A stretch of 59,309 nucleotides of DNA, taken from assembly GCA_025054955.1 (NCBI GenBank), contig JANWZE010000114.1, positions 1-59,309 on the forward strand. Reading direction: 5' to 3'. This document shows positions 13,643-26,456 of the stretch, piece after piece (within the stretch, counting starts at the first letter, position 1; the number at the start of each line of letters is the position of its first letter). The position numbers were made by a program, and so were the translations under genes. Source of the DNA: Blastocatellia bacterium. GTDB taxonomy: Bacteria > Acidobacteriota > Blastocatellia > HR10 > J050. The notes beneath the pieces are model-generated. The model searched no databases and was not told where the DNA came from. It saw nothing but the letters and a program-made list of their open reading frames with translations.

Positions 13643-15595
13643 TCATCGCGGTGTGCTGCCAACAGAGCTCTTGACCAAAAGCGCAGCCGCACGAGGCGGC
13701 AGGGTGACTTTGAGCTTGCCGCCGTCCACGCGAGAATCTGGAACTGCATTGAGCCGATCTTTAAGAACCGTTCCATCATCAAGCCGAGCTGCTGCTGCCG
13801 GGATTTCAATCGTGGCTGGCTTGGTATCGTTATTGAACGCCACGACCACCGACTCAGTCCGCGTCAAACGGGCATACGCGTAGGTTTGCTCGGTCACAAC
13901 AAGATGAGCCAGTTGACCGCGTCGCAATGGCTCTAATTCAGCGCGCAACATGGTCAGCTTGCGGACATGCTCGAACACAGCCTGTTGATCGGCAGTGCGG
14001 CCCGACGCTTCGAATGCGTTGCGCGGATCATCGGGCCAGCCGCCGGGAAAATCGCGACGGTTGTCTGGATCGCCGCCGCCCGGCATGGCGATTTCGTCGC
14101 CGTAGTAAATCAATGGAATGCCGCGTGTCGTCATGAGAAATGTGAAGGCCAGTTTCAATCCTTCAATGGTCGCACCCGGCTCATTCATGAAGCGCGGCAC
14201 ATCATGTAAACCAAGGAACGTCACCAGCAAATTGGGATTCACGTAAAGATGATCGCGGGCCAGCATCATGGCGACTTCCCGAATCGGTTTCCCCTGAGCG
14301 AATGCGCGGCGAAGCGGAAAGTGCAAAGGAAAATCGAAGAGCGCGTCTATTCTTGTATCAATGCCATCGAAGCGCGGCTGACCGCCTTGAAAGAACGAGA
14401 CCAGCGCCGGGTCGCCATCAAACAGTTCGCCGACGACCGTCACAGTCGGATATTCCCGCTTGATGGCTGTCATCCACTGGCGCCAAAACCAACGCGGCAC
14501 ATAGGGCAACGTATCTTGCCGGATACCATCCACGCCGGAGATGCCCAACCACCAGAGCGAATTTTGGATGATGTAACGGGCGACCTCTTCGTCATTTTGA
14601 TTCAAGTCCGGGAGGATGTTGATAAACCATCCATCGAGCGTCTCTCGCTGGGATGCTGGCGTAGCGTATGGGTCCATCAGCGTCCACACTTGCCAAGTGT
14701 TGGCCAGATGGTTGGCTTCCGTGCCGTTGTACCAGGTGGGCGTCGGCGGATCGTTCACCCAGGGGTGATAGGGGCCGGTGTGATTGGCCACTTGATCCTG
14801 AATGATCTTGAGGCCGTGTCGGTGGGCGGCTTCAACGAGCTGGCGGAACTTGGCTACGTCTCCGAAATGCTCATCTACTGCATAGAAGTCAACAGCACCG
14901 TAGCCGTGGTAGTCGGTGATCGCTTCGTTGTTGTAAGTCTCGCGTTCATTCAGATGATTCACGTTGTCATAGATCGGATTGAGCCAGATGGCCGTCACGC
15001 CGAGCTGCTTCAGATAGGGCAGCCGATTGATAATGCCTTGCAAATCGCCGCCGTGATAGTAGCGACTTTTCTGCCGGTTCAATAGTCCGCGTGAGATAGC
15101 CGGATCATCATTTGAAGGATCGCCATTGCAAAATCGGTCGGGCATGATCAGGTAGATGACATCGTCCGGCGAGAAGCCCTGAAATCGCCCTTGACGAGGC
15201 AATGGCACGAGCAGGCTGAATGACGCAGTTGCTGAGCCGCTCTCGGTTGTGATTTTGATCTGGCGACTGCCTGGTGTAGCTTGCGGGTCAATGCGCAGAT
15301 CAACGAACACGTACGTGCCAGCGGCGTTGACGCGCACTAGGCCAACCTGCACGCCACTACCTGAGACGTCAACACGCGCGCCTGTGAGATTCCGTCCACG
15401 GATCATCACCCGCACCGGATTGAGTGAATGGCCGACCCACCAATTGGGCGGCTCGACCTTCAACACCTCCGGCGCGCCGGCCGCTTGTGAGTGGTAGAGC
15501 GCAGAAGCCCCAGCCCTGCTTATCTGCATTGAGGTTGTTACTGCAAGGATGAGGCATACGAACAGGAGAACTTGGCGGTGTCGCAGTTGTATCAT
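13643..15595 (-). CDS. Exported GH13 enzyme, neopullulanase/cyclomaltodextrinase-like (SusA-like)
   Basis: 650 residues. Signal peptide at about 1-30 (VLLFVCLILAVTTSM, then ASA). Residues ~42-132 form the beta-sandwich N-domain seen in cyclomaltodextrinases (VEPPNWWVGH, VMIRGRNL). The GH13 barrel follows: IIQDQVANH (region I, to 272), GVDGIRQD (nucleophile D361), VVGE (acid/base E390) and FLGLHD (D465), then a C-terminal beta domain. The order matches Bacteroides SusA, a periplasmic neopullulanase that cuts maltodextrins and pullulan. It is the last gene of the glucan cluster and probably works on oligomers before uptake. Confidence 0.88.
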   Translation of the reverse strand: MIQLRHRQVLLFVCLILAVTTSMQISRAGASALYHSQAAGAPEVLKVEPPNWWVGHSLNPVRVMIRGRNLTGARVDVSGSGVQVGLVRVNAAGTYVFVDLRIDPQATPGSRQIKITTESGSATASFSLLVPLPRQGRFQGFSPDDVIYLIMPDRFCNGDPSNDDPAISRGLLNRQKSRYYHGGDLQGIINRLPYLKQLGVTAIWLNPIYDNVNHLNERETYNNEAITDYHGYGAVDFYAVDEHFGDVAKFRQLVEAAHRHGLKIIQDQVANHTGPYHPWVNDPPTPTWYNGTEANHLANTWQVWTLMDPYATPASQRETLDGWFINILPDLNQNDEEVARYIIQNSLWWLGISGVDGIRQDTLPYVPRWFWRQWMTAIKREYPTVTVVGELFDGDPALVSFFQGGQPRFDGIDTRIDALFDFPLHFPLRRAFAQGKPIREVAMMLARDHLYVNPNLLVTFLGLHDVPRFMNEPGATIEGLKLAFTFLMTTRGIPLIYYGDEIAMPGGGDPDNRRDFPGGWPDDPRNAFEASGRTADQQAVFEHVRKLTMLRAELEPLRRGQLAHLVVTEQTYAYARLTRTESVVVAFNNDTKPATIEIPAAAARLDDGTVLKDRLNAVPDSRVDGGKLKVTLPPRAAALLVKSSVGSTPR

Positions 15596-15989: not shown

Positions 15990-17384
15990 TCACGTTTGCT
16001 CCTCTTGAGACGGAGCGACTTCCCGTGCTCCTGGAACGTCCGGCGTCATGGCCACAAGCGACGGCGCCGCCCGCTCTTGCTCCGCTGTCACATCTTTCAC
16101 CCGCTGCACGAGCACTGCCGCCATCATCATGAACACACCGCCAACGATGACCGCCGAGAGGCGATTGTTGTTCAGTAGATGCTGCATGACCCAACCAAAG
16201 ACGAGCGAAGCCGCGATTTCAGGAAGGACGATGAAGAAGTTGAAGATGCCCATGTAGAGGCCCATCTTTGCCGGCGGGAGTGAGCCGGCTAAGATCGCAT
16301 AAGGCATGGCCAGGATGCTGGCCCACGCGATGCCCACGCCCGTCATTGAAAGCAGCAGGAGATACTTGTTGTGAATGAACGCCACCGACAGCAGCCCGGC
16401 TGCGCCGCATAGCAGACAGAGCGTGTGGGTTATCTTCCGGCTCGTCAACCGCGCCAGCGTGGGCAGCACAAATGAGAAGACGAAACAGACCGCCGAGTAC
16501 ATGGCAAAACAAATCCCGGCCCATTCGACGCCTTCGGTGTAGGCGGGTGATTTCTCGTCCAAGGCACCGAACACATTGCGGGCGACGGCCACAGGGAAAT
16601 AGAGCCACATGCAAAACAGTCCCAGCCAGGTACAGACCTGCACCCACGCCAGTTGCTTCATGGTTTGCGGCATGCCGGCGATGGACCTGAAGATTTCGCG
16701 CGCGTGGCCCAAGACACCCCTCTTTTCCGCCCTCACCTTCATGAAGGCATCCATGTCATCGGGCGGGTATTCTCTGGTGCTGACGATAGTCCACAGAACA
16801 GCTCCGAAGAAGGCTGCCGCGCCAATGTAAAAAGAGAGTTTCACCGTCAGCGGAATTGCGTGCTCGCCATCGGCCGTGCTTTGTATGCCAACCAGATTGG
16901 TCAGCAGCCAGGGCAGCGCCGAAGCGATCACTGCGCCCAGACCAATGAACAGGCTTTGCATAGCGAATCCGCGCGTGCGTTGCTCTTCCGGTAGCAGGTC
17001 AGCAACAAAGGCGCGGAATGGTTCCATGCTGATGTTGATAGAAGCATCCAGAATCCAGAGTAACCCGGCGGCCATCCACAACGCCGATGAGTTAGGCATC
17101 AAGATCAGCGCCACCGAACTCAGTATTGCCCCTATCAGAAAGTATGGCCGTCGGCGTCCCAGCCGGTTCCAGGTGCGGTCGCTCATGTGCCCGACAATCG
17201 GTTGCACGATCAAGCCGGTCAGGGGCGCGGCCAGCCAGAGAATAGGAATTTGGTGAGCCTCGGCGCCTAGATATTCGTAGATGGCGCTCATATTGGCCAT
17301 CTGCAAGCCCCAGCCGAACTGGATGCCGAGAAAGCCAAAGCTCATGTTCCAGATTTGCCAGAAGCTCAATCGCGGTTTGTCCAT
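15990..17384 (-). CDS. MFS sugar permease, SLC45/GPH-like
   Basis: 464 residues and about 12 membrane helices. [20 protein letters not shown] after helix 2 is the conserved MFS loop in the form used by SLC45/sucrose-transporter-like permeases, as is the opening [20 protein letters not shown]. Relatives in bacteria are often found beside GH13 and MalQ genes and import maltose or maltodextrins with protons, which fits this location. ATG 17384 is chosen; a GTG lies one codon upstream. The C-terminus after the last helix is soluble. It lies 122 bp downstream of malQ on the same strand. The substrate is inferred from context. Confidence 0.82.
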
Positions 17385-17506
17385 CACTCTCTCTTGAATC
17401 CCTCCTCAAAGGCAGTCACCATGCAGCCACAAAACGCCTGCGCATGGCCTCATGAGTGTGGAGGAATCACACCGCTCATGAGTGGCGGTTCGCGCTCTCT
17501 TGCCGC

Positions 17507-19042
17507 TCACTGGCTGCTGGCGCGGCCATAGAGTATCGTCAACTGCTTGAGCCGGTCACGAAGCTGCGGCGTGAGCATGTGAGCCTGAAATCGCCAGCGC
17601 CAATTGCCGCTCGGTCGAGCCGGCACGTTCATCCGCGCTTCGCTGCCCAACCCCAATACGTCTTGAAGCGGGATCATGACCACATCGGCGACCGATGCGA
17701 GCAATGCGCGGATGAAGACCCAATTCATCTCTCGCCCATCCGTATTGAGGTAATTCAACGCGAAGGCGCGCTCGCGCTCGATCTGCTCCGGCGTTCGCGT
17801 GCTATGGCCTGCGCCTGCGCTCGTCCACCACCCGATGGTCGTATCATTGTCATGCGTGCCGGTGTAGGCAACCAGATGACGAACGTAATTGTGCGGCAGG
17901 AACGTCCCCGCTTGCGGATCGCCGCCGAAGGCAAATTGCAAGACAGCCATGCCAGGAAAGCCGAAGCGATGTCGTATCGCTTCCACGCTCGGGGTGATGA
18001 CGCCCAAATTCTCCGCGACGATCGGCAACTCATCGAGCGCGCGTTGCAGGGCTTTGAACAACGCTGCGCCTGGCCCCTTTTTCCATCGGCCATTGACGGC
18101 TGTTGTTTCATGCCCCGGCACAGCCCAGTAGGCCTCAAACCCGCGAAAATGATCAAGCCGAACGATGTCCACCAGCGACAACGCCAACTTCAGTCGCTCA
18201 ATCCACCACAGGTAGCCTGTTCTGGCCATCACCTTCCAACGATAGAGCGGATTGCCCCACAACTGACCCGTGGCGCTGAAATAATCTGGCGGCACACCCG
18301 CCACCATCGCCGGCGTCCCATCCGCGTTCAACTCAAACCATTCCGGATGCGCCCAGACATCGGCGCTATCGTGAGCGACGTAGATCGGCATATCACCCAT
18401 GATGCGAATGCCTTGCTCGTGGCAATACTGCCGCAGCGCCTCCCACTGTTTGAAAAACTGATACTGCACAAACTTGTGGCATTGGATTTCGCTTTTCAAG
18501 CGCCGACGCCAACGGTTGATCGCGCTTGGTTCGCGCCGTTTGATGTCGTTGTCCCACTGCGTCCAAGCGGCATGCTCGTAAACCTGCTTGAGCGACATGA
18601 ACAACGCATAATCATCCAGCCACGAAGCATGCTGCCGACAAAAGGCCGTGAATGCGCGTCGCTCCCGAAGGGAAGCGCGAGCGTGGAACCTCTGGTAAGC
18701 GCGCCGGAGCAGCGGTAACTTGAACGCGATCACTGCGCCATATTCGACGTGATCATCTGGCAATGACGGCGCCGTTTTCACATCACGTGGCAACAGCCAG
18801 CCATCTCGAACCAGTTGATCCAGGCTGATGAGCAACGGATTCCCAGCAAATGCTGAGAAACATTGATAAGGAGAATCGCCGTATCCGGTCGGGCCCAGCG
18901 GCAAGACCTGCCACAATCGTTGCCCAGCGTCGCGCAGGAAATCAACGAACCGATACGCCTGCTGGCCCAGCTCGCCGATACCATATCGTCCCGGCAGCGA
19001 TGTCGGATGCAATAGGATTCCGCTTGATCTAGGAAATTTCAT
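17507..19042 (-). CDS. malQ: 4-alpha-glucanotransferase (amylomaltase)
   Basis: 511 residues, the normal length for GH77 of the Thermus/Aquifex type. It begins with SSGILLHPTSLPGRYGIGEL, and WQVLPLGPTGYGDSPYQ follows near 44. Catalytic residues: nucleophile D297 (VDIVRLDHFRGFEAYWAVP), acid/base E344 (VAENLG) and D398 (YTGTHDND). It transfers alpha-1,4-glucan segments between maltodextrins in the cytoplasm and releases glucose, the step expected after import by the permease encoded next. No signal peptide is present, consistent with a cytoplasmic location. Confidence 0.96.
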   Translation of the reverse strand: MKFPRSSGILLHPTSLPGRYGIGELGQQAYRFVDFLRDAGQRLWQVLPLGPTGYGDSPYQCFSAFAGNPLLISLDQLVRDGWLLPRDVKTAPSLPDDHVEYGAVIAFKLPLLRRAYQRFHARASLRERRAFTAFCRQHASWLDDYALFMSLKQVYEHAAWTQWDNDIKRREPSAINRWRRRLKSEIQCHKFVQYQFFKQWEALRQYCHEQGIRIMGDMPIYVAHDSADVWAHPEWFELNADGTPAMVAGVPPDYFSATGQLWGNPLYRWKVMARTGYLWWIERLKLALSLVDIVRLDHFRGFEAYWAVPGHETTAVNGRWKKGPGAALFKALQRALDELPIVAENLGVITPSVEAIRHRFGFPGMAVLQFAFGGDPQAGTFLPHNYVRHLVAYTGTHDNDTTIGWWTSAGAGHSTRTPEQIERERAFALNYLNTDGREMNWVFIRALLASVADVVMIPLQDVLGLGSEARMNVPARPSGNWRWRFQAHMLTPQLRDRLKQLTILYGRASSQ

Positions 19043-19133: not shown

Positions 19134-20372
19134 TCATCTGGAGTGTTGCCCGCTGACGCCCCAGAACAACTTCAACGCATCATCAATCCGCGCCCGCCAA
19201 CTTCCCCAACTATGACCTTCGTGAACTTCGATGTAGCGAAATGCATAGCCTTTCTGCGTCATGATCTGGCGCAGCCGGCGATTGGATTCCAGCAAATTAA
19301 ATCCGGAGACGTTGGTTTCATACGTGCCGACATCCAGATGAAACACGACATCCTTCTTGTCGGTCGCGCTGATCAGTTGCAGCAGTCGGTCGAAATAGGC
19401 GCCGGATTGCCCCGCCGATTTGCCAAAAACGTCAGGACGAGTCAGCGCCATATAGACTGCTGCCAGCCCGCCTAATGAATCGCCAAGCAACCCGCGAAAT
19501 GCCGCCGATGGCTTGGTTCGATAGCGCTCATCAATGGTGGCCACCACTTCGTTGACGAAAAATTCCACGAATGCCGGGTTCATGTTGTACTCACTTGTCC
19601 GTTGCACCGGCGGCACCATCACCACGATGATTGGCGGAATCGTTTTCTGATTGATCAAATAATCAACGATGTTGTTGATTTTGGCAAAACTGAGGTAGTC
19701 CGCTCCGTCATGCACATACAGGACAGGGTAGCGGTCTGACGATTGACGGTAATCCGGCGGCAGATAAACGCTGATCGTTCGCGTAGTGCGTAGGATATTG
19801 CTTGTGAGTGAAAACGTTTCGATTTGGCCGTGCGGTATGCCTGGATAAAACTCCACCTCGGGCGGCGGCACATAATCGGGCATCCAGAATTGCGAGTTCG
19901 GGCCGAAGCCGCTCGGCATCGTGCGCTCGTTAAGCGGATCGAGAATCCACGTGCTGCCGTTGATGACCAGCTTGTAATCGAGTCGCGCATCCAGCTCGAA
20001 CTCGCGAGCAAAATAAAACAGGTCGGTCTCCGCCACGTGTGTCATCGGTTGCGTGTTGGGATTCCAACCGTTCATGTCGCCGGCAATGGCGGCCCTGGTC
20101 GCAGGCCCTTGATAGAGAAACACCGCTCGGCCGAATCCCTGTGAGGCGCTGGCTTCGATGATTGGCGTGTTTTTGTCTTGAAGGCAATCAATGAACTGGT
20201 TGACCAGCGCCTGCTTGGCAGCTCGCCCTTCAGCGGCATTGACCCGCTGAAGGAATTCGTCAAACGGAGGACATGGCGCTGTGAACGCCCTGCTGACAGG
20301 CATCGGCTGGATAGCCAGCGGACTGCACATCGCTGTTATCAATACAGCCGACCACACAGACCTGACTTTCAT
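19134..20372 (-). CDS. Exported esterase with isoamylase-N/CBM48-like domain
   Basis: 412 residues. GAGGAG precedes the ATG. Signal peptide at about 1-30. Residues ~80-165 resemble the early-Ig (CBM48/isoamylase N) domain: AAIAGDMNGWNP, then YFAREFELDARLDYKLVING and DPLNER. The rest is an esterase of the enterochelin-esterase/feruloyl-esterase D type, with TISVYLPPDY, YPVLYVHDGADY, the nucleophile elbow GDSLGG (S299) and a likely catalytic His387 in GHSWGSW. Similar two-domain proteins occur near polysaccharide genes and may deacylate glycans. Its place between malQ and the SBBP protein supports a glycan-related role, but the ester cleaved is unknown. Confidence 0.8.
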   Translation of the reverse strand: MKVRSVWSAVLITAMCSPLAIQPMPVSRAFTAPCPPFDEFLQRVNAAEGRAAKQALVNQFIDCLQDKNTPIIEASASQGFGRAVFLYQGPATRAAIAGDMNGWNPNTQPMTHVAETDLFYFAREFELDARLDYKLVINGSTWILDPLNERTMPSGFGPNSQFWMPDYVPPPEVEFYPGIPHGQIETFSLTSNILRTTRTISVYLPPDYRQSSDRYPVLYVHDGADYLSFAKINNIVDYLINQKTIPPIIVVMVPPVQRTSEYNMNPAFVEFFVNEVVATIDERYRTKPSAAFRGLLGDSLGGLAAVYMALTRPDVFGKSAGQSGAYFDRLLQLISATDKKDVVFHLDVGTYETNVSGFNLLESNRRLRQIMTQKGYAFRYIEVHEGHSWGSWRARIDDALKLFWGVSGQHSR

Positions 20373-20390: not shown

Positions 20391-20464
20391 GCGGCACAGG
20401 CATTCCTGCCTGTGGTGTTTTTCATCGTTTCTGGGCGTCGTCACCGATGACATGAACAACTCCT
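20391..20464. repeat. Hairpin repeat (CACAGGCA-TTCC-TGCCTGTG) plus conserved tail
   Basis: A perfect 8-bp inverted repeat at 20395-20414, then at 20435-20464 a block reading CGTCGTCACCGATGACATGA, which recurs near 38901 (GGTCGTCACCGACGACATGA). The same two parts are found at 38756 and 38901, so they belong to one repeat family. Confidence 0.75.
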
Positions 20465-20467
20465 CTG

Positions 20468-21823
20468 TCAGTTTTTCACGCCACTGAGCCGAGCGACCCA
20501 TTGCTCGATGCCTTCGCCATCGTACTTCATCGTGGCCCAGTCAGCAGAATGATCATCTCCAACGCTGCTGCCCGTCACGTAGATATGACCCGCAGCATCA
20601 ATCGTCATCGCTGTCGCTCGATCCACATCATTGCCGGGGCCATTGTAACGGACAACCCACTGCTGGACACCATCGGCGCTGTACTTCACCGTCGCGTAAT
20701 CGGTCAACGAATGAACGCCTTCGCTCGCGCCGGTCACGTAAACCTGACCGCGTGCATCCACGACGATGCTGCTGGGGGTGTCGGCATCATTGCCAGGGCC
20801 GTTGTACCGCGCGACCCATTGCTGAACGCCATCGGCGCTGTACTTCACCGTCGCGTAATCTTCAAACGTCCCTACGCCTTGACTGGCGCCTGTCACATAG
20901 ACGTTACCGGCAGCGTCAAGCGTCAAGGCCGTCGCCGCATCAATGCCATTGTCCGGACCATTGTAACGTGCGATCCACACTTGCGTGCCGTCAGGCCGAT
21001 ATTTAATCGTCGTGTAATCACTGGAGGAATTCACGCCGACACTGTAACCAGTCACATAGACGTTACCAAGTTGGTCAACAGCCAGCGCAGTCACCTCATC
21101 GGCGCCATTGCCTGGCCCGTTGTACCGCGCCACCCACTGCTGGACGCCATCGGCACTGTACTTGATCGTTGCAAAATCACGGGCTGTGCCGGCGCCAATG
21201 CTGAAACCAGAGACATAGACGTTGCCGGCTTCATCAATCGCCAAGTCGAACGCTTTGTCCAGATCATCACCAGGACCGTTATAACGCGCGACCCACTGCT
21301 GAACGCCAGCGGCATTGTACTTGATCGTCACATAATCCTTGGACACACGAGGCGCCACACTCAGCCCTGTGACATAGACATTGCCGGCGGCATCAACCGC
21401 AATGGCTGTCGCCATGTCCAGATCGTTGCCTGTTCCGTTGTACCGCGCGACCCACTGCTGGACGCCATTGGCGTCATACTTGACTGTCGCATAGTCATTC
21501 TGGCTGGTACCAGTCACATAGACATGGCCAGCGGCGTCAACAGCCACCGCGCTGGCCGTATCATCACCATGCGATGGACCATCGTAACGAACCGACCATA
21601 CCGGCACGCCGGTTGGATCATATTTGGTCGTCAGGTAGTCATGGCTTGATCCGTCTGAGACCGAGCCGGTGATATACGCATAACCGGCCGCGTCAACGAC
21701 AATCGAACTGGCGATTTCATTCGGTCCAGCAGCGGACGCTCCGAACCGGATCACACTTAACGTAAGCGTAAAAACCATCGCTAGCAAGCTAACAAACATT
21801 CTCTTCTTCAAACTGTCCCTCAT
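20468..21823 (-). CDS. Exported SBBP-repeat beta-propeller protein
   Basis: 451 residues from ATG 21823, chosen because CGGAGGAG lies five bases upstream; earlier Met codons lack such a site. Signal peptide at about 1-31 (MFVSLLAMVFTLTLS, then GASA). The mature protein is about eight repeats of ~50 residues carrying 'VDAAGNVYVTGxS', 'DYATVKYSADGVQQWVARYNGPGND' and related strands, the SBBP (seven-bladed beta-propeller) pattern. The repeats are very alike at DNA level too, suggesting recent internal duplication. Such propellers are exported and of unknown function; a surface binding role is possible. It sits inside the glucan cluster. Confidence 0.85.
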   Translation of the reverse strand: MRDSLKKRMFVSLLAMVFTLTLSVIRFGASAAGPNEIASSIVVDAAGYAYITGSVSDGSSHDYLTTKYDPTGVPVWSVRYDGPSHGDDTASAVAVDAAGHVYVTGTSQNDYATVKYDANGVQQWVARYNGTGNDLDMATAIAVDAAGNVYVTGLSVAPRVSKDYVTIKYNAAGVQQWVARYNGPGDDLDKAFDLAIDEAGNVYVSGFSIGAGTARDFATIKYSADGVQQWVARYNGPGNGADEVTALAVDQLGNVYVTGYSVGVNSSSDYTTIKYRPDGTQVWIARYNGPDNGIDAATALTLDAAGNVYVTGASQGVGTFEDYATVKYSADGVQQWVARYNGPGNDADTPSSIVVDARGQVYVTGASEGVHSLTDYATVKYSADGVQQWVVRYNGPGNDVDRATAMTIDAAGHIYVTGSSVGDDHSADWATMKYDGEGIEQWVARLSGVKN

Positions 21824-21849: not shown

Positions 21850-21925
21850 GATGCACTGATGAACAGATTTTGAATCGGTCAGATTTTCAATCAGCCATCA
21901 GTAAATCGGTGCTTATTTTTCATTG
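21850..21925. repeat. Interspersed repeat (CTGATGAACAGATTTT type)
   Basis: GCACTGATGAACAGATTTTG, followed by a second TCAGATTTTCAATCAG block and TCGGTGCTTATTTTTC. A close relative is at 38845-38900. Confidence 0.65.
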
Positions 21926-21998: not shown

Positions 21999-24887
21999 TC
22001 ATTCATGGACGAAAATTGTGCTGGGCACAACGCCAAACAATCGCTGGTTGGTCGGAAAAACTTCAGCCGGGTAGCGACCACCAAACTCAATCCGATCCGG
22101 TGAACTTGGTGATGTCAACTGCCCTGACTCGCCACCATACGTGATGTAGGCAAACAATGCCAATCGCGCGTCCGGCGGAACGCGACCATCCGCAAACAAA
22201 GCCGTCCATGGAATAGCAATTTCCAATCCATCCGTCACAGCGCCTGTCGGTGGATTGACGGCCACCGGCCCGCGCATCGCGACATACTCAGGATCAAAGG
22301 CGATTTCGGCAGCTAGCTCCACCAGATCGCGTAGCTCAGACAGATTGATCCGATACAGGCCGGCTCGGGCGGCTACCGGTGGAGCAGTTGCCGCTCCGCT
22401 GCGAATCGGCGCAGCCGGCGCGCTGCAAAGCCCGGCTCCGCCCAACGTGGCTACCACAAACTCAGCGCCGAAGCGTTCGTCCGGCGCGGTGATCTCAGTG
22501 CTGGAAATGAGTCGCGTCGCCGGACCTGAATCATCATCAATGCGTCCCAGCTCACGCAGCCCTGTGGCTCGCCCATAGTCCACATCAATGAACAAAACAA
22601 CGCCCGTCGCGTGCGGCCCCTGGACAATCGCCGAGAGACCGATGTAGAGATTCGTTCGGTCAGCTTCCACCAGCAATGCATTTAGCTCATTCTGTCCATT
22701 GAGCGGGCCAGGATCAACCATCTGCACAGCGATCGGCTCAGCACTGAAATCGCCGACGATATTGCCGTCGGTTACATGCTCTGAACGATCGGGTCGGTCG
22801 AGCAAGAAAATTTGCGTGAAGGTGTTAAACACCGGCGCAACGCCATCGCCCGGCGCACCGAACGCCAGGAATTTGACGACATGCCAACCTTCGTTCAGAC
22901 TCGAAAGGTCTACATCGGGCAGGAGGAACTGACCAGCGCCGAGCGCATCCGCCCGCACAAAGCCGTCTGCCAATCCTTCGGGGCTGCCCGCAATCGGGCT
23001 TCGTCCGGCCAATGGAAGCGCGGCTCCGTCAATTTGCACAACAACGTCGGCGGCTGTGCCATCCGTGCAGAGGCGCAATGTAATCACGTCCGCTCGGACA
23101 ACTGGCGCATGCACTCGCGTGTTCGGCTCCGGATCAGCAAATCGTCCATCGGCAGTGGGGAATGGTTGCAAGGGCAGAACGACGCCTTGCTGCTCCAGGC
23201 GGACGGGATGTGAGCCGTCAGGTGGTCCACCGGGATTGCGCGGTCCGTACAACACAAACCCCCGACCGTTGTTGTCAAATCGAATCTGACCGGGCGGATC
23301 ATCAGCCGGGTTGTTGTTACTGGGCACGCGGATGGTCACTCGACGATCCGAGCCAACTGTAACCGGCGGCATCTGTCCACCATAATCAACCAACACCGTG
23401 CCAGGTGGAAATGAGGTCGTCACAGTGACCTGCTCTGCATCATTGGAATCAGCTAGATCATTCAATGCAACCAATGCCAGCCCCTTGCCCTCCACGACGC
23501 GCTCAAAAACAAAGACATCGTCATCCGCCCCTTCTTCCGTCGCGCGAACGACAATGTCACCGCGCGCAAATTCGTTGTGAAAGTCAATGAGCGCTCGCAG
23601 CAGGTTGCTTCCCTCACCCAGCGCATCGGTACGACCGGGCCGCGGAAAATTCGTTCGCGCGTCATCAGGAATGTTATTGCCATCGAAGTAGACGATGGGG
23701 CGACCGGGCCGCGTTAGAACCCATGCATGCGCCAGATTATTCGCTCGCGGTGGCAGCACGTCATGATTCTGAACGAACGTGAAACCGATGCGTGGATCAA
23801 GGCCGCCATAAGCGAAGCGGATGCCTTGATCGAGGCGCGGCGGATTGCCCAGCCAAAACCCGATGGACTGATCACCAATGGCTGTATTGAACACCCGGTT
23901 GAGCGTGAAATAGAGCGGATAGTCCAACAACGCCATGCCGGTCTGCGCGTAGGTGGCCAGCTCGCGGGCATCAGCCGATAGGTTTTCGCCAAAGATAACG
24001 GCATCGCGGCCCGTGCGCGCGCGCACGCCGCGATGCAATCCCTCCAGAAACGGCGGACCTGACATCCGACCGCCAACCTGCTCCGCTGGGCCGCCAAAAA
24101 ACGCCGGTATGGTGTGCTTGACCGCATCCAGCCTGTAACCATCCGCGCCAATGACCGCGCCCATGAACCACGCCCAACGATGAAGGAATTGGCGCACGTC
24201 TTCACTGACCGGCCGACCATCGGGATAATACTGCGGCGTCAGTGGGTGGCGCACATACGTTGGCTTCCCGAACTCGTTCAAGCCAATCGGCCCCGGCGGA
24301 TCAAGCGGGCCGCTGATGTTGTTGCCATCCTCTTGCGCAATGTCGGCCAGCCCGAGCAGATCACAATTGAAAATTTCGGCGCTGAGCGGCACAAAATTCC
24401 GAATCTCGCAATTGCTCGTATCGGTGTTAGAGCGGATGTGAAAATCTTGCGGGATCAGGTCCGGGTAGCCGCTGATGCGCGTCACCCCGCGATTGGCGTT
24501 ATGATTCATCACCGTGTCGAAATAAACTTCCAATCCCAGTTGATGCGCCGCCTTGACCAGATCCAGCAGCTCTTGAGCGGTGCCATAGCGCGTGCTGACC
24601 GTGCCATATCCAAGCCGGTCGCCGAAATCAAACCGGTCAGCCGGATCATACCCGACCGATGCCGCTCCAGAGCCGGCCTTATTGGGCGGCGGCAAATAGA
24701 TTGCGCCGTACCCCATCTGCACGACCTCTGGCAACCGTCGTTGCAAATCCCTATAGCTGGTTTCAAACCATTGCAACACAACCGACGGCGCGCCACCAGT
24801 ACTGCGCTGGGCATTGATCGGCGCGTGGCACACGCCCAGTCCAAGCGCGCACGAGAGCAACACACACAGAGCGATGAATCGTTCCAT
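21999..24887 (-). CDS. Large secreted alpha-amylase (GH13) with glucodextranase-like C-domain
   Basis: 962 residues with a signal peptide (about 1-27). The GH13 barrel spans about 35-480: YFDTVMNHN (region I, 122-130), GADGYRLDAVKH (nucleophile D254), VIFGENLS (acid/base E301) and FVQNHD (D376), then a beta domain. About 570-700 looks like a linker beta-sandwich. The last ~250 residues, from 'VTDGNIVGDFSAEPIAVQMV' through 'FIDVDYGRATG' and 'GLEIAIPWTALF', resemble the C-terminal DOMON-like domain of glucodextranases and amylopullulanases. It probably starts extracellular starch breakdown for the genes downstream. Confidence 0.88.
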   Translation of the reverse strand: MERFIALCVLLSCALGLGVCHAPINAQRSTGGAPSVVLQWFETSYRDLQRRLPEVVQMGYGAIYLPPPNKAGSGAASVGYDPADRFDFGDRLGYGTVSTRYGTAQELLDLVKAAHQLGLEVYFDTVMNHNANRGVTRISGYPDLIPQDFHIRSNTDTSNCEIRNFVPLSAEIFNCDLLGLADIAQEDGNNISGPLDPPGPIGLNEFGKPTYVRHPLTPQYYPDGRPVSEDVRQFLHRWAWFMGAVIGADGYRLDAVKHTIPAFFGGPAEQVGGRMSGPPFLEGLHRGVRARTGRDAVIFGENLSADARELATYAQTGMALLDYPLYFTLNRVFNTAIGDQSIGFWLGNPPRLDQGIRFAYGGLDPRIGFTFVQNHDVLPPRANNLAHAWVLTRPGRPIVYFDGNNIPDDARTNFPRPGRTDALGEGSNLLRALIDFHNEFARGDIVVRATEEGADDDVFVFERVVEGKGLALVALNDLADSNDAEQVTVTTSFPPGTVLVDYGGQMPPVTVGSDRRVTIRVPSNNNPADDPPGQIRFDNNGRGFVLYGPRNPGGPPDGSHPVRLEQQGVVLPLQPFPTADGRFADPEPNTRVHAPVVRADVITLRLCTDGTAADVVVQIDGAALPLAGRSPIAGSPEGLADGFVRADALGAGQFLLPDVDLSSLNEGWHVVKFLAFGAPGDGVAPVFNTFTQIFLLDRPDRSEHVTDGNIVGDFSAEPIAVQMVDPGPLNGQNELNALLVEADRTNLYIGLSAIVQGPHATGVVLFIDVDYGRATGLRELGRIDDDSGPATRLISSTEITAPDERFGAEFVVATLGGAGLCSAPAAPIRSGAATAPPVAARAGLYRINLSELRDLVELAAEIAFDPEYVAMRGPVAVNPPTGAVTDGLEIAIPWTALFADGRVPPDARLALFAYITYGGESGQLTSPSSPDRIEFGGRYPAEVFPTNQRLFGVVPSTIFVHE

Positions 24888-24990
24888 GTCAGCCCTAATG
24901 AGGCAGCCGATGACTCACAGAGTTGGATCAGACCAGCACAAATCAATTCGATTTCTGCTAATCTGCCAACTCTGCCGCTCAATGATCAAT

Positions 24991-25917
24991 TTAGGGAACT
25001 GTGATGATAATGTCCGCTACCCTATCAATGACCATTGTGCCATGATTGGCATTGGAAAGGTCGGTGCTTTCGGGCAGATTATTTGGACTAGGATAGCCCG
25101 TCTTCGACGTGGTGATCGCCACCAGTCGAATCCGATGCATGCCGGAGCCGAGCCGGAGTTGAGACACAGCAATTGCAGCCTCAAACCCGTTGGGCGCGCC
25201 ATACACGGTCCCCGGTTTACCCCGGCCCGGACCAAACGGCCTGACCACCACATCATAAGCAAATGTACCTTGCAGCTCCGCAAAATTAGTGGTTGTCCCA
25301 GGCAATCTGGCGCTCCCCCACGAGTAAAAGCCACCCACATCAGGACTGGAAATAGCAAACGCTGCATCCCAGCCCGTGCCCGCGGCAATCAACTCAGCCG
25401 ACAAGTTGGTGCCGGCATCGGAGATCATGGAACGCCGCTTCATCGCATCCGGCAATGTTTGATCAGAAACATCATTCAGGTCAGATGGATCACCATCATC
25501 GCCGAATCCATCTAACCCATCGTCCATGTCCTTGGCGCCGGTGCCTGCGCCCGGATCAACGTCCAGCAGAATGAGCGTTCCATTACCCACATTGGTTTCG
25601 TCGCCACCGAACATATCACCACGAATGGCGAAAAATAACTGGCCTGCTTGATACTCAACATAAAGCTCCGTAATTGTGCCATCCGCTCCGAAATCTTCCT
25701 GCTCAGGCGGTATGGGAGGAATGTCATCCCGCGCCCCGTTTGCGCCAGAGACAGCAATCGGATTGTAATTCACTGTGAAATCTGTAATGTCGCCATCAAT
25801 CACCAGCGGCGCCTGCGCTGGGGTTGATGCATGCGTTGTCATACCGCTCAGTTGAGTATTCCCAATAGCGAGACATAGCGCGAGCGCCAATCCCGCGAGC
25901 ATTGTTTGTAGCTTCAT
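24991..25917 (-). CDS. Secreted DOMON/CBM9-like protein
   Basis: 308 residues from ATG 25917, which has AAGGAGGGG upstream; the longer reading to 26013 lacks a start signal. Signal peptide at about 1-32. The mature part opens 'APLVIDGDITDFTVNYNPIAV' and continues with 'ITELYVEYQAGQLFFAIRGD', 'LILLDVDPGAGTGA' and 'GFEAAIAVSQLRLG'. This order of motifs matches the C-terminal domain of the amylase encoded next (DGNIVGDF, LLVEADRTNLYIGLSA, FIDVDYGRATG, LEIAIPW), so it looks like a free-standing relative of that domain. Binding of glucan or surface attachment is a reasonable guess. Probably first in the cluster. Confidence 0.65.
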   Translation of the reverse strand: MKLQTMLAGLALALCLAIGNTQLSGMTTHASTPAQAPLVIDGDITDFTVNYNPIAVSGANGARDDIPPIPPEQEDFGADGTITELYVEYQAGQLFFAIRGDMFGGDETNVGNGTLILLDVDPGAGTGAKDMDDGLDGFGDDGDPSDLNDVSDQTLPDAMKRRSMISDAGTNLSAELIAAGTGWDAAFAISSPDVGGFYSWGSARLPGTTTNFAELQGTFAYDVVVRPFGPGRGKPGTVYGAPNGFEAAIAVSQLRLGSGMHRIRLVAITTSKTGYPSPNNLPESTDLSNANHGTMVIDRVADIIITVP

Positions 25918-26456
25918 AACGTCCCCTCCTTCGATTGTTGAGTGATAAAACAAGCTTCCCCACTCTAAAGACTGCGTGAGTGGATTCCTTTTGTTCCTTA
26001 CCGGGCTGGGCAAACATACAAAACCGCCGTCAGTCTGTCAATGTAATCCAATAGCTTCGGTAAAGGCCACGTTTTTGCAGGGGCGTTGCTGCGTGGACGC
26101 CCGTTGACGTGTGGTGTTTTTGTGTCGCGGCGACGCACGTTTCGAGGAGGGTTGGTGAGTGGACGCCCTCCGGGCAGGGGCTCGGGCTGAGGCTGAGGCC
26201 GCCGCCGCGCTGAAGCCGAAGTGGCGCGCCTGCGCCCAGCGCTGGAGCAACGCCGGAGGAAATAGACTGACGATGACGGCCACTGCCGCCGCCATCCCCC
26301 AGTCATCTTCATAAGAAGTTCACCAGAGCCAAAATTCCTCCTTGATCTTTCGCCAACCCCTCCATCGCGTCGGGTGGCTAAGGGCGACCGGTTGATGGCT
26401 TGCTGCCACGTGAACACAGTAGCCTGACAACGCGTTGCTTGGTACAATGTCGGCTG
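25918..26456. other. Gene-less region with interspersed repeats
   Basis: No convincing gene. At 26068-26135 lies a copy of the TTTTTGCAGGGGCGT / GTGTGGTGTTTTTGTGT repeat, seen inverted at 27937-28030. The stretch from about 26150 to 26270 is GC-rich and repetitive (GAGGCTGAGGC-type). The promoter of larB is probably in the last 60 bp. Confidence 0.6.
26068..26135. repeat. Interspersed repeat (GTAGGGGCGTCGC family)
   Basis: Contains CGTTTTTGCAGGGGCGTTGC, then GTGTGGTGTTTTTGTGTCGC and GACGCACGTTT. The same words occur inverted at 27937-27996. Confidence 0.7.

Follow-up and report, generated by a model that had tools for sequence, protein, structure and literature searches.

A secreted protein gene beside an alpha-amylase gene of a Blastocatellia bacterium encodes a putative free-standing relative of the amylase C-terminal domain

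The stretch of DNA analysed here (the window; contig JANWZE010000114.1 of a Blastocatellia bacterium, 59,309 nt) carries two neighbouring minus-strand genes, one for a secreted protein of 308 aa (the free protein) and one for a secreted GH13 alpha-amylase of 962 aa, which appear to share a domain. The free-protein gene occupies nt 24,994–25,917 (24,991–25,917 with the stop codon) and its ATG is preceded by AAGGAGGGG. A gap of 103 bp (nt 24,888–24,990) separates it from the amylase gene (nt 21,999–24,887), the 3′ part of which (nt 22,002–22,796) encodes the C-terminal domain, or tail, to which the free protein is related (the last ~262–265 aa). The free protein has a putative signal peptide at about residues 1–31, and the stretch homologous to the amylase tail covers about residues 34–255. 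Both proteins look exported, with putative secretion signals that were read by eye, and both end in the shared domain.

The catalytic domain of the amylase matches the alpha-amylase profile PF00128 (E = 7e-13) with 49 bits against a cut-off of 22, and its top NCBIfam model is NF006970 (E = 7.5e-42, under the cut-off of that model). In the PDB it matches 1mwo (phmmer, E = 8.6e-23), with the best stretches inside residues 1–521. A second amylase with the same architecture (1011 aa) is found in genome G054 (locus L003), and matches the window amylase over residues 36–929 (E = 1.6e-279). The segments GYRLDAVKH, FGE and HD are identical between the two enzymes; we take these to be the regions of the catalytic Asp, Glu and Asp of GH13, and on that assignment the catalytic residues are conserved. 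The two tails are 46% identical, and since the G054 enzyme has the same form of tail, it appears to be a stable part of this enzyme type. The G054 domain also contains, close to its end, a stretch (DFDGDGIPGND), presumably of the calcium-loop type, which is absent from the window amylase.

The original prediction held that the free protein and the amylase tail share four motifs in the same order. All four are found in both proteins and in that order, two of them with small deviations. The first is DGDITDF in the free protein and, with one residue more, DGNIVGDF in the amylase; the second is LYVEYQAGQLFFAI and LLVEADRTNLYIGL, respectively, the final residue being L and not I; the third is LLDVDPGAGTG and FIDVDYGRATG, and the fourth EAAI and EIAI. 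The free protein and the window tail are colinear, with an identity of about 25–27%. Their local alignment score of 72 (z = 5.2) was reached by 2 of 1000 shuffles, and their ends-free global score (z = 5.2) by none of 1000. Against the G054 tail the free protein has a local score of 105, with local and global z values of 8.9 and 8.5, and no shuffle reached either score (0/1000 each). For a control with real sequences, 349 open stretches of at least 200 aa in the window and the fetched loci supplied 494 segments; none reached the score of 105 against the G054 tail (maximum 65). The best local alignment of the free protein to the G054 tail leaves the two DG motifs unpaired, so that the N-terminal register is uncertain, as are the ends of the three-sequence alignment.

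A profile built from the two amylase tails, without the free protein, aligns with the free protein over 187 columns (hhalign, E = 9e-5) and with its mature form over 202 columns (score 34.1). Profile alignment had been proposed as one check on the observation, which is confirmed. Controls scored at most 22.0 (200 shuffles), at most 20.1 (30 open reading frames chosen from the 119 listed for the window) and 13.0 (the reversed sequence), and none of the 494 control segments aligned over 150 columns or more. Run on 98 related genomes, a sample overlapping with the 396 phylum genomes described below, the two-tail profile had just two matches at E ≤ 0.1 in the genome that carries both genes, namely the amylase and the free protein, the latter with E = 0.006 at profile positions 25–90 (66 positions; nt 25,519–25,728). 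A three-sequence profile that includes the free protein detected no third copy in that genome at E ≤ 1. When many genomes are searched, a thin profile of two sequences can score this highly by chance; the argument depends on the G054 tail, the extent of the colinear match and the adjacency of the genes. The alignments support the view that the free protein and the amylase tail are distant relatives belonging to one domain family, and it is largely the G054 tail that carries this conclusion.

The third gene of the run (nt 20,468–21,823, minus strand) codes for a secreted SBBP beta-propeller protein with eight matched stretches to PF06739 (E = 3.7e-32). Its ATG at nt 21,823 follows GGAGGAG; the Pfam scan of the locus, which covered 20 window proteins, took a longer frame from nt 21,856. 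The gene order on the minus strand is free protein, amylase, beta-propeller protein, and all three products look exported. Upstream of the free-protein gene is a promoter-like site on the same strand (TTGACA-17-TATGTT, nt 26,013–26,041; a 10/12 match to the consensus), and 3′ of the beta-propeller gene is a terminator-like hairpin (nt 20,395–20,414, minus strand). Both are weak evidence, because such sites are no more frequent, or hardly more so, than in shuffled sequence (6 promoter-like sites in the region against 6.1 expected, and 13 hairpins against 9.1 ± 3.7). The same strand then carries genes assigned by Pfam to an esterase-like protein (nt 19,134–20,372), a GH77 4-alpha-glucanotransferase (nt 17,507–19,042), a major facilitator superfamily (MFS) transporter with a sugar-transport match (nt 15,990–17,387) and a cyclomaltodextrinase-like GH13 protein (nt 13,643–15,595). 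The last three of these share the strand of the amylase, and the region is read as a starch/maltodextrin locus. The esterase-like protein shows a weak CBM48 match (E = 0.022) inside this starch locus and, in six other genomes searched, has one weak relative (E = 1.1e-11, in G054). GH77 is present in 5 of 6 genomes searched, and tblastn searches with 17 window genes of the five stretches fetched around it (5.4 to 19.9 kb) gave, besides GH77, one weak match to an aldo/keto-reductase.

On our best reading, the shared domain would serve as an accessory module within a run of genes for secreted starch degradation. We tentatively favour, with a confidence just short of even, a single family of secreted accessory domain that has no match in the curated families searched and occurs in two forms, as the C-terminal tail of the amylase and as a stand-alone exported protein that would serve as a non-catalytic accessory beside the enzyme. 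What underlies this is sequence and position: the kinship, the adjacency of the genes, their common strand and their place in the starch/maltodextrin gene run. The free-protein and amylase genes may be co-transcribed, and the shared domain would have a beta-rich fold. The free protein would act outside the cell, alongside the amylase; in the simplest case it would catalyse nothing itself and would keep alpha-glucan or the enzyme near the cell, by analogy with free carbohydrate-binding proteins elsewhere. It is from genomic context that a glucan-binding accessory role is plausible. The more specific proposal, that tail and free protein form an uncatalogued family of alpha-glucan-binding modules and, together with the amylase and the beta-propeller protein, a small dedicated starch-capture cassette, is rather unlikely.

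Accessory domains of enzymes are already known to occur as free-standing copies, but this one had no match when Pfam, NCBIfam and the PDB were searched, and it may represent a small family not yet catalogued. The fused and free pair provides ready material for asking what the domain binds: if this is alpha-glucan, a new carbohydrate-binding family is at hand, and if not, the domain is a structural module and the finding an ordinary one. SusE and SusF of Bacteroides are likewise exported, non-catalytic and encoded next to an amylase of the cell surface (SusG), but they are lipoproteins of the SusCD locus, whereas in the present case no lipobox was seen by eye and no SusC or SusD family occurs among the 20 window proteins scanned. 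CBM20 domains are elsewhere fused to starch enzymes. Cgt of Actinoplanes sp. SE50/110 resembles the free protein in being a small secreted protein with a single accessory domain; unlike the free protein, Cgt belongs to a known family (CBM20) and its starch binding has been demonstrated in vitro (PMC7275007), while the present domain matches no Pfam CBM model. Among the papers listed on free-standing starch-binding modules, on CBM9, DOMON and glucodextranase, on SusE/SusF and on amylases of Acidobacteria, none describes the pairing in its title or abstract opening, and a search for DOMON- or CBM9-like amylase tails found no paper.

Several results weigh against the accessory-domain reading. Pfam returned no family at E ≤ 10 for the free protein, the window tail or the G054 tail, a result limited by the HMMER filters, which discard most matches weaker than 0.1. 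In NCBIfam the free protein had no match, and the best 25 of 32 matches to the whole amylase all lie in its N-terminal catalytic part. GH13 alpha-amylases of the PDB, such as 1mwo, resemble the enzyme in that part, but none of the best 60 of 69 matches reaches the C-terminal domain, and the domain sequences gave single chance-like matches only (a T-cell receptor, E = 0.31, and haemoglobin, E = 1.4). In strand pattern we take the domain to resemble the CBM9/DOMON-like beta-sandwiches (a DG...DF start, an LxVE...L meander and a G.E.AI strand), but the Pfam result did not confirm this for any of the three sequences. Single-sequence AlphaFold2 models were of low confidence (mean predicted local distance difference test, pLDDT, 35.3 for the mature free protein and 30.1 for the amylase tail); they speak neither for nor against a common fold. 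In both, three strands fall within the aligned LxVE...DVD stretch, an agreement that was given no weight. The three aligned sequences share 37–39 invariant columns, most of them holding Gly, Asp, Pro or a small or aliphatic residue; the F of DF is the one aromatic among them and Trp is absent, although three sequences are few for judging a sugar platform. The G054 domain has no Trp at all and that of the window amylase has one. Over these three sequences the invariant residues agree with a common scaffold bearing an acidic loop and give no pointer to a shared sugar platform. The original prediction stands as regards a domain encoded both fused and free, but its suggestion of a common attachment or glucan-binding site finds no backing in the single invariant aromatic, the lack of invariant Trp or the Pfam search. 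Further points on the same side are that no free form was detected in G054 in the search of the 98 genomes, though the fused form is present, so that the domain is seen there as an amylase tail only, and that the free gene is less typical in codon usage (log-odds 0.018) than eight nearby genes (0.092–0.172). Six of those eight made up the reference set, the remaining two scoring 0.092 and 0.131, and an antisense control frame scored −0.034, below the free gene. Finally, deletion of cgt is described as having no apparent phenotype, limited starch included (PMC7275007), and this precedent therefore establishes no role by itself.

The same conserved residues bear on a different account, in which the domain common to both proteins would bind no glucan and would be a module for structure or surface retention, stabilised by a metal, probably calcium, with an unrelated partner or ligand for the free copy. 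Conservation is strongest in an acidic loop of Gly, Asp and Thr (DVDxGxxTG, with a D-rich segment after it), the composition of the invariant columns counts on this side, and the extra stretch of the G054 domain would add a further loop of the calcium type. Acidic loops are, however, presumably common in secreted beta-sandwiches, including those that bind sugars, and we regard this account as possible but on the doubtful side. A further account makes the domain a cell-surface or secretion signal that would direct both proteins to a common outer location, in agreement with their exported look and with the domain at the end of each. Such a signal would be one without cargo, because the domain makes up nearly the whole mature free protein; the beta-propeller protein, which is also secreted and encoded in the same run, has an hhalign score of just 20.1, and only two places in the genome match (the two-tail profile at E ≤ 0.1 and the three-sequence profile at E ≤ 1). 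This makes a targeting signal improbable.

The kinship itself could be an illusion if two unrelated Gly/Asp-rich secreted proteins had converged on common strand-turn motifs. The BLAST match between the free protein and the window amylase is borderline (E = 0.061), and its local score against the window tail is reached not only by the 2 in 1000 shuffles but also by 2 of the 494 control segments (maximum 86). In the hhalign comparison, too, 2 of the 494 exceed the score of the free protein, at 37.7 over 81 columns and 35.9 over 58 columns; by eye these are a threonine-dehydratase-like enzyme and a cysteine desulfurase, respectively, unrelated to the domain, and the uncertain alignment ends add to the doubt. 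Both, however, lie in loci that had been preselected as the best chance matches of the two-tail profile in other genomes, and the free protein aligns over 187–202 columns, where no control segment reached 150. Convergence also leaves the score against the G054 tail, matched by no segment and no shuffle, to chance, along with the fact that the only further profile match in the genome is the adjacent gene. It is the least probable of the explanations.

Both proteins appear to be rare in the genomes covered, in searches that scored only some first-look candidates per genome (2, 5 or 6 in the searches of 396 genomes). Apart from the amylase itself, one full-length relative was found among the 98 related genomes, and four further genomes match only at about residues 42–132, in the catalytic part; in the 396 phylum genomes nothing but the amylase itself was found at E ≤ 1e-30. 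No relative of the free protein was detected outside its own genome at E ≤ 0.001 in either sample. At E ≤ 0.1 the phylum genomes gave 33 places, 32 of them not the gene itself (best E = 0.0046); of the 19 loci returned, 16 were scored in the matched frame and rejected, the highest hhalign score being only 17.5, and two had frames too short to score. The sole locus from a contig scan with the free protein (L008) has a chance-like match, and the frame concerned resembles, by eye, a molybdopterin oxidoreductase. The three-sequence profile produced two matches outside the own genome among the 396, a pentapeptide-repeat protein by eye (G019) and a 93-codon stretch antisense to a 418-codon frame (G253; 26.9 over 34 columns), and neither was accepted. 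Four weak matches of the two-tail profile in other genomes (E = 0.028–0.072) were likewise dismissed, three being by eye a cysteine desulfurase, a threonine-dehydratase-like protein and a zinc-ribbon protein and the fourth (L032) a 94-codon frame. Among plasmids, tblastn found no match for the free protein or the amylase tail; with the whole amylase as query it found 12 records, none of them matching outside residues 3–401 of the enzyme. Scans of viral contigs with the two tails confirmed none, and PHROGs held nothing for the amylase tail and a single 11-residue match for the free protein (E = 0.087).

The free gene does not seem to stem from a recent local duplication of the window amylase's tail. 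The free protein is no closer to that tail (59–65 identities) than to the G054 tail (58–64), over 232–251 aligned positions depending on the aligner setting, and both values are far below the 113–118 identities over 259–263 positions between the two tails. Judged by these identities, the free form is probably an old branch or a separate arrival. Its G+C content at third codon positions (GC3) is 0.54, compared with 0.62–0.73 in the eight nearby genes, which may reflect a later acquisition.

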